Of a stretch of DNA of 27,326 bases, positions 5,965 through 25,836 are shown in pieces (the first letter of the stretch is position 1; each line of letters opens with the position of its first letter). Origin of the DNA: a virus; IMG/VR virus record IMGVR_UViG_3300048505_000002, positions 1 through 27,326 of that record. The stretch is one strand, 5' to 3'. The position numbers and the translations under genes were made by a program. The notes under the pieces are model-generated. The model was not told where the DNA came from. It saw only the letters and a program-made list of their open reading frames with translations, and searched no databases.

Positions 5965-6909
5965 ATGGCACTAGGTACTAATCATGTCACCAAGACCACT
6001 GCGGATAAGTTTATCCCAGAGATTTGGAGTGACGAAATCATCGCAGCATACAAGGCTAATCTTGTTGCTGCAAACATGTTCAGCAAGATGTCTTTCAAAG
6101 GTAAGAAGGGCGATACGCTTCACATTCCGAAGCCTACTCGTGGTTCTGCATCTGAGAAAGCAGCTTCTACTCAGGTAACGCTTATTGCTGCAACTGAGTC
6201 AGAAATTCAAGTTCTTATCAACAAGCACTATGAGTATTCACGTTTGATTGAGGACATCGTTGAGACACAAGCTTTAAGCTCTCTACGAAAGTTCTACACT
6301 GATGACGCTGGTTACGCTCTAGCTAAACAAGTTGATACTGACTTGATTCAGCTTGGTCGAGGTGTTAACGGTGCTACCGTTGGTACTAATGACTATGCTA
6401 CTGCTGCTGCATCTACTAACGCTTTCATCGGTTCTAACGGTACAACAGTCTATAACAGTTCATCATCTAACGCTGCTGCGTTGACTGATGCTGCTATCAG
6501 ACGTTCTATCCAGCGACTCGATGATGCTGACGTACCAATGACAGATCGTTGCATCATTGTCCCACCAACAACAAGAAACACTCTTATGGGTCTAGCTAGA
6601 TTCACTGAGCAAGCTTTTGTTGGTGAAGTTGGCGGAGCAAACACAATCCGTAACGGTATGATTGGTGATCTATACGGTGTAATGGCGTATGTATCAACTA
6701 ATGCTGATAGCGGTGCTGGAAGCTCTGGCGCTGACCGTATCTGCCTACTTGCACACAAGGATGCTTTTGTTCTTGCTGAGCAGATGGGTGTACGTTCTCA
6801 GACCCAGTACAAGCAAGAGTACCTCGGTACATTGTTCACATCAGATATGCTTTACGGTGTAGCTGAGTTGCGTGACGATGCTGCTGTTGCTCTAGCTGTT
6901 CCTGCTTAA
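5965..6909 (+). CDS. Major capsid protein
   Basis: A 314-residue protein preceded by AAAGGA and followed by a strong terminator, as expected for the most abundant virion protein. It begins MALGTNHVTKTTADKFIPEI and continues with a pattern (IWSDEIIAAYKANLVAANMF, then GDTLHIPKP and LIEDIVETQA) that I recognise from HK97-fold coat proteins of marine podoviruses. The C-terminal part has DRCIIVPPTTRNTLMG and GDLYGVMAYVSTN, typical of the A-domain region. It builds the icosahedral shell around the scaffold. Confidence 0.88.
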   Translation: MALGTNHVTKTTADKFIPEIWSDEIIAAYKANLVAANMFSKMSFKGKKGDTLHIPKPTRGSASEKAASTQVTLIAATESEIQVLINKHYEYSRLIEDIVETQALSSLRKFYTDDAGYALAKQVDTDLIQLGRGVNGATVGTNDYATAAASTNAFIGSNGTTVYNSSSSNAAALTDAAIRRSIQRLDDADVPMTDRCIIVPPTTRNTLMGLARFTEQAFVGEVGGANTIRNGMIGDLYGVMAYVSTNADSGAGSSGADRICLLAHKDAFVLAEQMGVRSQTQYKQEYLGTLFTSDMLYGVAELRDDAAVALAVPA

Positions 6910-6921
6910 TTAAGTAGGTAT

Positions 6922-6955
6922 CTCCCCAGGCTCATAAGGTCTGGGGAGTTTTATT
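6922..6955 (+). terminator. Rho-independent terminator after the capsid gene
   Basis: CTCCCCAG (6922-6929) pairs perfectly with CTGGGGAG (6941-6948) around an 11-base loop and is followed by TTTTATTATT. It lies 12 bases after the capsid stop codon. No clear promoter is visible between it and 7026, so downstream genes probably rely on read-through, as in T7-like late regions. Confidence 0.88.
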
Positions 6956-6960
6956 ATTGT

Positions 6961-7002
6961 CGTTCATCCATTAGGACGGAAGTAGGGAAACCGAAGGAAC
7001 GC
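6961..7002 (+). promoter_or_regulatory. Glutamine riboswitch (glnA / Downstream-peptide RNA type)
   Basis: The RNA can fold as a three-stem junction that matches the glutamine riboswitch consensus. The closing stem is CGTTC (6961-6965) with GAACG (6997-7001). The second stem is TCC-ATTA-GGA (6967-6976), followed directly by the conserved CGGAAGTA (6977-6984). The third stem is GG-GAAA-CC (6985-6992), followed by the conserved GAAGGAACGC (6993-7002). Known aptamers of this class bind L-glutamine and in cyanobacteria control nitrogen genes; the Downstream-peptide variant sits before short ORFs in marine cyanobacteria and phages. Here it lies 14 bases before a ribosome site and a 31-codon gene, the same setting. 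Recognised from memory of the consensus, not by a covariance search. Confidence 0.85.
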
Positions 7003-7025
7003 ATCTTTCTTTATTGGAGGGTGTT

Positions 7026-7121
7026 ATGACTTGGCAAGACTTCTGCCGTAAGCGTGAATTAAATGATCACAAAAAGCAACAACTACTTAAACTACGACAA
7101 AGGAAACACTATGTGGACTAA
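7026..7121 (+). CDS. 31-residue basic peptide under the glutamine riboswitch
   Basis: ATG at 7026 follows GGAGGG (7016-7021) and opens a 31-codon frame starting [19 protein letters not shown] and ending RQRKHYVD. It is rich in Lys and Arg, probably helical, with one Cys at residue 7. It is the peptide expected directly after a Downstream-peptide RNA. In cyanobacteria, glutamine riboswitches control small basic inhibitors of glutamine synthetase; this peptide is shorter and I see no clear sequence match, so a role in host nitrogen metabolism is only a guess. Its last 11 bases overlap the PqqA-like gene in another frame, and the ribosome site of that gene lies inside it, which suggests coupled translation. 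Confidence 0.75.
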
Positions 7122-7182
7122 ACCTGAATACACTGAAATGAGATTTGGTTTTGAAGTCACGATGTATATTGCAACTAAGTAA
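7111..7182 (+). CDS. pqqA: PqqA-like precursor peptide of PQQ
   Basis: A 23-codon gene with AAGGA at 7100-7104. The peptide starts [14 protein letters not shown] and ends EVTMYIATK. It shares with bacterial PqqA the Trp2, Lys4-Pro5, Arg11, Gly13, the core EVTMY with Glu15 and Tyr19, and the 23-residue length. In PQQ synthesis those Glu and Tyr are cross-linked by the radical SAM enzyme PqqE with the chaperone PqqD and then cut out to form the cofactor. No pqqB-F is in the window, so the peptide would feed, compete with or decoy host enzymes. It lies in a riboswitch-led two-peptide unit between capsid and tail-fibre genes, and its stop overlaps the ribosome site of the next gene. Confidence 0.88.
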
Positions 7183-7191
7183 GGACGTATA

Positions 7192-8832
7192 ATGGCTATA
7201 TTTAGAGGAGCAGGAGGACCAGGAGATGCCACAACAGATGCTGCTAATGAAGCTAGTGTAGCATCTACAAAGGCTGCTGAAGCTGCTGCATCTGCTACTG
7301 CTGCTGCGTCCTCTGCCACTTCTGCTGCTACCTCAGCAACTTCTGCCGATGCTGATGCAACGTCAGCTTCTACTTCAGAAACTAATGCTGCTGCATCTGC
7401 TTTATCTGCAACTACTTCAGAAACTAACGCAGCTACTTCAGAAACTAATGCAGGGACTTCTGCTGCTAATGCTGCTATTTCTGCTACGGCTGCAGCTACA
7501 TCCGCAACTAATGCTGCAACATCAGAGACTAACTCTGCTACAAGTGAAGCAAACGCTGCTACATCGGCTGCAACGGCTGCTGCAGAGGCTGCTGCTGCAC
7601 TAGCTGCTTTTGATAACTTTGATGATAAATACTTAGGTGCTAAGGCATCTGACCCAACACTAGATAATGACGGTGACGCTTTAGTTGCTGGTGCATTATA
7701 CTTTAACACTACTTCAGGTGTTATGAATGTATACACTGGTTCTGCTTGGGTAGCTGCTTATGTATCTGCTGCTGGTGTTTTACTTCAAGCTAACAACTTA
7801 TCTGATGTTGCTAGTGCGTTAACGTCAAGAGCTAATCTTGGTTTAACTATAGGTACTGATGTACAAGCACACTCTGCTGTACTAGATGCTACTACTGCAT
7901 CATACACAACTGCTGAAGAGACTAAGTTAGCTGGTATAGAAGCCAGTGCTGACGTAACAGACGCAACTAATGTAACTGCTGCTGGTGCGTTAATGGATAG
8001 TGAAGTTACTAACCTAGCACAAGTTAAAGCATTTGATTCAACAGACTATGCTACTGCTGCTCAAGGTACGTTAGCTGATAGTGCTATACAGCCTGGTGAT
8101 AGTCCATCATTTGCTAGTTTAACAGTAGACACAGACACACTTGCTGTTGACTCTACAAACAACAGAGTTGGTATTGGTACAACCACTCCCCTTACAAAGT
8201 TGGTTACTGTTGGTACGACAATGGCTACTAGTCAAGCCTTTGTTGGAAGTGTCTCTGATACTAGTTATTCTGGTGGAATAATTAATCTCAGCAATTCAAG
8301 TAGATCAATAGGTATAACATCTGACCCAACTAATTCAGGTGCAAGTTCAATACTTAATTTTAGTGTTGATGGCTCAGAAAAAATGCGCATTAACTCTAGT
8401 GGCAACGTTGGTATTGGTACTACTAATCCTAGTACAGAATTGGATGTTTCAGGTACAGTAAACGCTACATCATTTACAGGTAGTGGTTCATCTTTAAGTG
8501 GATTAGTTAGTCAGACATCTGCAACAGGCTCTGCTGAGATGCCAGCAGGTACTACAGCACAACGAGACGTATCTCCTAGTGCTGGTTATTTAAGATTTAA
8601 TTCTACTGATAGTTCCTTTGAGGGCTACGATGGCTCTGCATGGGGTGCTATTGGTGGTGGAGGAGGAGCTAGTGGTGGAGGTTCTGATGCTATCTTCTAC
8701 GAAAACGGACAAACTATTACTACAAGTTACTCGATAACAGCAAGTACTAATGCAATGTCTACAGGACCACTAACAGTTAATAGTGGTGTTTCAGTAACAG
8801 TTCCTAGCGGATCAAGATGGGTGGTGTTATAA
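7192..8832 (+). CDS. Large tail-fibre protein with Ala/Ser/Thr heptads
   Basis: A 546-residue virion fibre. Residues about 22-140 are almost only Ala, Ser, Thr, Asn and Glu in seven-residue periods such as ATSETNA, likely a trimeric coiled-coil shaft. Then comes FDDKYLGAKASDPTLDNDGD, a segment often found in podovirus fibres after the shaft, followed by repeats with RVGIGTT.P and a glycine-rich linker (GGGGASGGG) before a final small domain ending SVTVPSGSRWVVL. The short N-terminus (MAIFRGAGGPGDATTDAANE) probably fixes it to the tail. Its stop directly abuts the next start, and the next gene copies its last domain. It probably binds the host surface. Confidence 0.85.
   Translation: MAIFRGAGGPGDATTDAANEASVASTKAAEAAASATAAASSATSAATSATSADADATSASTSETNAAASALSATTSETNAATSETNAGTSAANAAISATAAATSATNAATSETNSATSEANAATSAATAAAEAAAALAAFDNFDDKYLGAKASDPTLDNDGDALVAGALYFNTTSGVMNVYTGSAWVAAYVSAAGVLLQANNLSDVASALTSRANLGLTIGTDVQAHSAVLDATTASYTTAEETKLAGIEASADVTDATNVTAAGALMDSEVTNLAQVKAFDSTDYATAAQGTLADSAIQPGDSPSFASLTVDTDTLAVDSTNNRVGIGTTTPLTKLVTVGTTMATSQAFVGSVSDTSYSGGIINLSNSSRSIGITSDPTNSGASSILNFSVDGSEKMRINSSGNVGIGTTNPSTELDVSGTVNATSFTGSGSSLSGLVSQTSATGSAEMPAGTTAQRDVSPSAGYLRFNSTDSSFEGYDGSAWGAIGGGGGASGGGSDAIFYENGQTITTSYSITASTNAMSTGPLTVNSGVSVTVPSGSRWVVL
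7261..7610 (+). repeat. Low-complexity GCT/ACT/TCA repeat coding for the fibre shaft
   Basis: The DNA is a degenerate run of GCT, TCT, ACT, TCA and AAT codons giving heptads such as ATSETNA and ATSATNA. Several near-copies (for example TCAGAAACTAATGC at 7375 and 7438) could recombine and change shaft length. The composition also creates a false 214-codon frame on the other strand. Confidence 0.7.
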
Positions 8833-23789: not shown

Positions 23790-23947
23790 TGGAGCAGTTC
23801 ATCATCAACTTCTGGGAGATCATCTCAGGGCTACTGTTCGTAGTGTTCTTAGCCATAACTTGGAAGGCAGAAATTGGGGCACGCATCTCAGTGTTAGAAG
23901 AGAAAGTACGTGCCCTGTTTGATTTAATTAATAATAAGAAAGATTAG
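23789..23947 (+). CDS. 52-residue membrane protein, holin-like
   Basis: The ATG overlaps the preceding stop (TAATG). The frame gives MEQFIINFWEIISGLLFVVF, one membrane helix, followed by a charged helix (WKAEIGARISVLEEKVRALF) ending LINNKKD. N-terminal membrane helix plus short coiled coil resembles small phage holins and virion-linked membrane proteins found at the end of such operons. It is the last rightward gene, and it overlaps the convergent reductase gene by four bases. Confidence 0.7.
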   Translation: MEQFIINFWEIISGLLFVVFLAITWKAEIGARISVLEEKVRALFDLINNKKD

Positions 23948-25836
23948 ATCTCACAAGCTCCTGCTGTACAAGCCAGTGTCTGCGCTCCTTCCACGTTGTC
24001 ATCAATCTCTATGAGGCTGTTCCACTCAATGCTCTTTGGCATCTTATGAAGGAGTTCTTTATACTCCTCTTCAGTGCATTCCTCATAGGGTGCTTGCTTG
24101 TATGTCCCACCATCATACGGCAGGAAGCTAACACCACTGACATCATCGAAGTTCTTCCAGATCCATGAGCCTACCTCAGGCCACTCATGCTCTTCAACAG
24201 AGATAGTGACTGACGGCTTATGCTCACACCAATGCTTCTGATACATCAGCCACAACTCTAAGTGTTCAATAGCTGTGATGTCCTCACGCAGTAGCGCACT
24301 GTCTGGTGACTTCTTAGGAAAACTAAACACAGTAGTAGACTCTGGTCGTAGCACACAGTCCTCAGACGGTATGCCTTGATCAGTCATGAACGTGGATAGA
24401 GGATCTTTCTTATCGCCTCGTACCCTGCGGACATAATACTTACTGTGTCTCGTATGAATCCCAGAGGCAGAGTCAACAAGCTGACTAACAGTGCCAGAAG
24501 GCTTAATACAAGTGATGGCAGCAGATACAGGGATATCAAGCTCAGTGGATAGCTGTAAGTTTGTAGCAACCGAAACATCTCTGAGTCTTTCAAGCATTGC
24601 CTTAGTCTTGTCACTGGTTTCTCCCATAAGTTTGTTGTCCAGGATACCAGTCAGTGATACACCGAGTAGTCTCTCAGCCTCAGTATTCTTCTGCCATACC
24701 TTACGTAGATAAGGGAAGTGAGTCATCGTAGACTGATACGTTCCTAAGATAGTAGCTAGTCTGACCTTGCGTTCTAAGTCTTGCTTGGTATCTGTAGATC
24801 TAACTACTACCTCAGACAGGTTACAGAACTGGTAAGGTCTAAGGATAATCTCTGAACAAGGGTTAGTACCGTACTCAAAGTCTGTATCCCTACGTCCGTT
24901 CTTCTTAGCAGTAGCAACAGCAGCCTCACGATTAAAGATACCACGCTCACCACTGTGACTGTGATACAAGCTAGTCCACTCGTTTAGGAACTGTCCTACG
25001 TCAGGCTTAGTAGCATACACAGCAGAGTTGTTAGCCAACGCACGTTGAGGGTTAGCTTCCCACCACTGACCTACCTTAGCGTGACGCATCTTGTCATCCT
25101 CTAAGTCAGACAGTGAGATCATAGCTGAACGTCTAACACCACCCACTACTACAACCTCAGCCACCTTGCACATGATGTCGTGGCACTCTAGTGTGTTTAG
25201 CTTACGTCCTGCTGCACCTTTAAACCTAGTGATAACAAACTTAAACAACTCATGTAAAGGTTCTGGTCCACTAGCCCTACCACCAAACGTCTTGAGTCTA
25301 GCACCTGCTGGTCTGACCTTGCTTGTGTCCCACTGAGGTATCTCACCAGAGTACAGCAAAGCAATGACCTGACGCAATGACTTAGCCCAACCTTCCTTGC
25401 TATCAGGTACAACAATAGTTGTGTCAGAATCAAACAGCTTGTCAGGTATCTCAGGTAGCTTGTCAACGTACTTATGTTCAACACTAAACCCTACACCAGT
25501 ACCACATAGTAGGATGTACATAGCCTCATCGAACGCTTTAGGATCATCGACAGGCATGTAGCTACAGTTGTATCCTGCTGTGTTGTCCCTATCGAGTGCC
25601 TTACCAGCAGCCATGATAGCTCTCATAGAAGGTACAACCTCTAGGTTCTTGATAGCCTCACGCATCTCTGAGTCTGTCTCCATTGGCATGACATGGTTAT
25701 GCTTAGTCTCCAGATGGTTCTTCATAAAGTCCATGTACCTATCGACTGTCTCAAACCAATCTTCCCTACGTCCTTCTGCTTCTACGAATCTGCAATACCT
25801 ACTCTTAGCAATGTACTCCTGGTAAAAATCCATCAT
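23944..25836 (-). CDS. nrdJ: Adenosylcobalamin-dependent ribonucleotide reductase (class II)
   Basis: A 630-residue enzyme that converts ribonucleoside triphosphates to deoxy forms for phage DNA synthesis. The residues of monomeric class II reductases are present: Cys91 in AGYNCSY, NPCSEI with radical Cys327 and Glu329, Cys338 in QFCNLSE (11 residues after Cys327, as in the Lactobacillus enzyme), and a C-terminal redox pair C623-x4-C628 in ACTAGACEI. It is shorter than that enzyme (about 740 residues), as phage forms often are. It needs coenzyme B12, so the host must make or import cobalamin. Its start overlaps the upstream gene (ATGATG) and its end overlaps the convergent rightward gene. Confidence 0.92.
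   Translation of the reverse strand: MMDFYQEYIAKSRYCRFVEAEGRREDWFETVDRYMDFMKNHLETKHNHVMPMETDSEMREAIKNLEVVPSMRAIMAAGKALDRDNTAGYNCSYMPVDDPKAFDEAMYILLCGTGVGFSVEHKYVDKLPEIPDKLFDSDTTIVVPDSKEGWAKSLRQVIALLYSGEIPQWDTSKVRPAGARLKTFGGRASGPEPLHELFKFVITRFKGAAGRKLNTLECHDIMCKVAEVVVVGGVRRSAMISLSDLEDDKMRHAKVGQWWEANPQRALANNSAVYATKPDVGQFLNEWTSLYHSHSGERGIFNREAAVATAKKNGRRDTDFEYGTNPCSEIILRPYQFCNLSEVVVRSTDTKQDLERKVRLATILGTYQSTMTHFPYLRKVWQKNTEAERLLGVSLTGILDNKLMGETSDKTKAMLERLRDVSVATNLQLSTELDIPVSAAITCIKPSGTVSQLVDSASGIHTRHSKYYVRRVRGDKKDPLSTFMTDQGIPSEDCVLRPESTTVFSFPKKSPDSALLREDITAIEHLELWLMYQKHWCEHKPSVTISVEEHEWPEVGSWIWKNFDDVSGVSFLPYDGGTYKQAPYEECTEEEYKELLHKMPKSIEWNSLIEIDDNVEGAQTLACTAGACEI

Follow-up and report, generated by a model that had tools for sequence, protein, structure and literature searches.

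The locus examined here raises the question of why a phage should carry pqqA, the gene for the precursor peptide of PQQ, standing apart from the other genes of the pathway. PQQ is a redox cofactor in bacteria, made from a glutamate and a tyrosine of PqqA. Because one peptide is used per cofactor, PqqA is spent in the synthesis, whereas PqqB–E are reusable. The window, by which we mean the whole stretch of DNA analysed (27,326 bases of an IMG/VR virus record), is a podovirus fragment with terminase, portal, capsid and tail genes around pqqA (Table 1).

A standalone pqqA among structural genes

Examination of the sequence alone had pointed to PqqA by way of Trp2, Pro5, Arg11, Gly13, Glu15 and Tyr19, all of which are present in the translation, the last two making up the E-x3-Y core. 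Both family models bear out this identity: PF08042 matches the peptide at 43.9 bits (E 2.1e-11; cut-off 21.1) and the NCBIfam equivalog TIGR02107 at 47.7 bits (E 8.8e-13; cut-off 20), and the profile search returned it as the sole PqqA of the window. It has the length of PqqA from cellular pqq operons, as described by these two models, and shares their Trp-x2-Pro, Arg and Gly-x-Glu-Val-Thr-x-Tyr; compared with PqqA of two cellular genomes, 20 of its 23 residues are equal. An AAGGAA (7100–7105) lies some 6 nt 5' of the ATG. By these measures the peptide is a real PqqA, carried by a phage.

Table 1. Features in and around the pqqA locus of the window.
Feature	Position	Strand	Evidence
Major capsid protein gene, upstream neighbour	5965..6909	+	PF19821, E 9e-10
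Intrinsic terminator ending capsid gene	6922..6948	+	11-pair stem, then T run
Glutamine riboswitch aptamer (glnA leader)	6959..7005	+	Rfam RF01739
Upstream ORF, 31 residues, basic	7026..7121	+	GGAGGG at 7016–7021; recurs in relatives
pqqA, 23-residue PQQ precursor peptide	7111..7182	+	PF08042 and TIGR02107 matches; selection
Tail fibre-like gene	7192..8832	+	PHROG tail fibre matches

Unlike pqqA of cellular operons, the gene stands alone, lacking pqqB–E and lying inside a block of phage structural genes. The sequence-only reading had seen no other PQQ gene in the window, and this holds: searches for pqqE and PQQ alcohol dehydrogenase found neither there nor in the three longest relatives tested (31–36 kb), and no pqqB–E match occurred in the flanks of this pqqA or of any listed viral pqqA locus, while cellular controls were detected. 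By contrast, both pqqE and PQQ alcohol dehydrogenases were present in each of the 19 cellular genomes tested.

Relatives were gathered through homology of capsid or portal, with pqqA sequence playing no part in the choice. Eighteen contigs have a portal identity of at least 75% and extend beyond the capsid gene, and in all 18 the capsid and tail-fibre genes flank pqqA. It is absent at this place from a sister group (portal identity at most 61%), and an HMM search of that group's near-complete records (~37 kb) did not find it. The open reading frame is kept in 23 homology-found relatives, with Glu15 and Tyr19 invariant, a pN/pS of 0.118 among distinct sequences, and 19.5 synonymous changes to 9.5 replacements (P ~6e-8, simple binomial test), which excludes a chance ORF. 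This pattern of substitution indicates that pqqA is under purifying selection. A metabolic gene of host type that has become fixed in a phage lineage, it is a candidate auxiliary metabolic gene. A more distant capsid relative (L178 1726) has a different pqqA elsewhere in its contig, which suggests a separate gain.

Glutamine riboswitch, upstream ORF and tail-fibre gene

Three features had escaped the sequence-only reading: a riboswitch upstream of pqqA, an ORF overlapping it, and the spread of the gene over several phage lineages. The aptamer matches RF01739 at 55.9 bits (E 5.4e-10; gathering threshold 35), and several relatives also pass the Rfam threshold. By pattern, it lies 149–154 bases 5' of pqqA in at least 41 viral loci; its hairpin arms covary by eye (UCC..GGA becoming UCU..AGA in L285). 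About one-third of the window-type loci listed for the window's phage group lack the riboswitch by pattern search, as does one full record (L264) by Rfam, so regulation by it is not essential. In L123 and L270 the gap between capsid and pqqA is short and holds no aptamer by pattern; such members show pqqA to be independent of the aptamer.

The upstream ORF recurs between riboswitch and pqqA in relatives (pN/pS 0.25) and, among the relatives fetched, was seen only alongside the riboswitch. It matched no protein family and is possibly a leader peptide. In the window its 3' end overlaps the start of pqqA in another frame, an overlap that suggests translational coupling, and in three relatives (L257, L259, L285) it is fused in frame to pqqA.

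Only 9 bases separate the pqqA stop from the tail fibre-like gene and there is no terminator-like site between them, and the two genes are on these grounds probably co-transcribed. Since pqqA immediately precedes the tail-fibre gene, one riboswitch may govern the two, and one could imagine that the tail-fibre gene is what the riboswitch and upstream ORF are there for, with pqqA a mostly neutral acquisition from hosts. We consider this improbable: pqqA persists in members without the riboswitch, bears the marks of purifying selection, and is found in all informative close relatives as well as in unrelated phage lineages.

A glutamine riboswitch in a phage was reported in 2022 for Melnitz (PMC9004378). 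It belongs to the same Rfam family and is from a phage of a heterotroph, but it was described with a tmRNA rather than with pqqA, whereas that of the window precedes pqqA.

Host and proposed role

The capsid protein is 29–35% identical to cyanopodovirus capsids (e.g. that of Anabaena phage A-4L), which together with the riboswitch prompted us to consider a cyanobacterial host. Such a host is not favoured, because the peptide resembles beta/gammaproteobacterial PqqA, because in a close relative the genes for replication have their nearest counterparts in proteobacterial phages, those of Pelagibacter and Roseobacter, and because glutamine riboswitches also occur in phages of heterotrophs (PMC9004378). 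The peptide differs from the nearest cellular PqqA at 3–4 residues, too few to place the host. A metallophosphoesterase is nearest to that of the methylotroph phages MEP401/402, and on the minus strand (23944–25836) the window encodes a B12-dependent ribonucleotide reductase, at most 67% identical to the enzymes of Lentibacter, Rhizobium and Roseobacter phages.

The peptide of phage P19250A is identical to PqqA of cellular genomes of ~1.3 Mb and 36% GC, the presumed host group, which we infer to belong to the order Burkholderiales. These genomes also encode PqqE and PQQ alcohol dehydrogenases. The pqqA core pattern has 2–3 matches in them and up to 7 in larger relatives. In Methylophilaceae, 3–12 pqqA copies accompany one set of the other pqq genes, with a single pqqB–E (PMC4109929), and the extra copies are also standalone (PMC9851590). 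This multiplicity suggests that the dosage of the peptide matters.

We propose, with a probability of roughly 0.75, that the phage PqqA serves as a genuine substrate for the host's PQQ enzymes and so could raise or keep PQQ supply. The phage would carry only the 72-base pqqA and leave PqqB–E to the host; because it is spent in making PQQ, the peptide would be the component that a small genome gains most from encoding. If host PqqA is limiting during infection, as we assume, phage PqqA could keep or raise PQQ supply after host transcription falls, and PQQ-dependent alcohol or methanol oxidation would be sustained or raised in the infected host. The riboswitch and coupled upstream ORF may tie expression of pqqA, and perhaps of the tail-fibre gene too, to glutamine. 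In this model we infer the host, the expression of the peptide, its conversion to PQQ, the benefit to the phage and the sign of the switch. A cell-free extract given PqqA peptide yielded PQQ (Wang 2021, as cited in PMC9851590). Counting against a supply role, pqqA sits in a block of structural genes that are probably expressed late, where a gene for boosting metabolism would hardly be expected.

Three functions had been offered from the sequence alone, namely support of host PQQ supply, competition for PqqD and PqqE, and use by another radical SAM maturase; the first fits best, both cross-linked residues being kept and some phage peptides being the same as cellular ones. A competing peptide would act as a decoy, occupying PqqD/PqqE so that the host makes less PQQ, perhaps to halt alcohol oxidation or to deprive rivals. 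Excess phage peptide could indeed compete with host PqqA, and no other PQQ gene is carried by the phage in the loci and relatives searched. A decoy would, however, be expected to lose or alter its cross-linking site, and neither reactive residue varies among the relatives found by homology; moreover, provided that the enzymes are there, extra substrate should yield extra product. We thus regard a decoy as unlikely, since the identity of the P19250A peptide with a cellular PqqA, the invariant core and the selection on the gene favour a real substrate. Least probable of all is that a different enzyme matures the peptide, giving some other modified peptide or a signal. As RiPP precursors, PqqA-like peptides would allow this, and the in-frame fusions with the upstream ORF might fit such a product, but the peptide scores above the cut-off of the PqqA equivalog and follows the PqqA pattern over its whole length, and neither the window nor the three long relatives contain a gene of pqqE type.

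A substrate role would recall cyanophage psbA, which likewise stands in for a single short-lived or consumed component of the host's energy system; psbA specifies a protein subunit, however, and pqqA a cofactor precursor peptide. We would go further only tentatively, with a generalization that may well fail: that the consumable cofactor precursor, without its enzymes, has been taken up again and again by phages of PQQ-dependent bacteria, and that in one large podovirus group a glutamine riboswitch and coupled upstream peptide let nitrogen status set cofactor supply during infection.

Spread over other phages and earlier reports

A degenerate PqqA pattern matched at least 120 stretches in IMG/VR, every one of those listed being a 22–23-residue ORF counted from the Trp, with Met at or just before it, and a window-type pattern gave 116 matches. 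Pooled with the other loci found, they amount to at least 199 distinct viral pqqA loci, cultured methylotroph phages among them, and at least 70 peptides. In phage records, tblastn detected the gene in MEP301, MEP401, MEP402, Venkman, P19250A, four Melnitz isolates and one spring-water virus. The genes in the named phages encode the same peptide family as that of the window and are likewise standalone, but they belong to other phage lineages, occupy other gene positions and have no PqqA annotation.

The sequence-only reading had allowed that similar phage peptides might have been noted before, and this suspicion was correct: PqqA was reported in 2020 for the Lake Baikal population VP_266, where it was interpreted as an auxiliary metabolic gene carried by viruses of methylotrophs (PMC7678222). 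Both VP_266 and the window encode the peptide, but VP_266 is T4-like and has a methanol dehydrogenase gene as well (PMC7678222), whereas the window represents an uncultured podovirus group with a glutamine riboswitch, in which no dehydrogenase was found. According to the same paper, the genes it reports are missing from P19250A; the P19250A record nevertheless encodes PqqA at 28085–28153. A search confined to the open-access literature found neither standalone pqqA described for a range of methylotroph phages nor pqqA joined with a glutamine riboswitch. Phage PqqA as such is thus already known, and it is the breadth, standalone form and riboswitch arrangement that appear new.

If the supply role holds, viruses would affect methanol and alcohol oxidation in water through a 23-residue substrate missed by gene callers, several cultured phage–host pairs could be used to test directly whether PQQ supply is limited by PqqA, and tiny RiPP precursor genes would form an overlooked class of viral metabolic genes.

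In the records of cultured methylotroph phages pqqA is either unannotated or overlain by an antisense hypothetical protein. Antisense calls of this kind in the spring-water virus (L236, 2067–2195) and Melnitz (L237, 3961–4056) are, from their position over pqqA, probably gene-calling errors. Two further tblastn matches, to Acinetobacter ‘phages’, were dropped because they look bacterial, with a full pqq operon in the one examined. This record (L240, CAKLQF020000010.1), labelled Acinetobacter phage MD-2021a, contains pqqB, C, D and E-type genes and a polyphosphate kinase, and resembles a bacterial chromosome.
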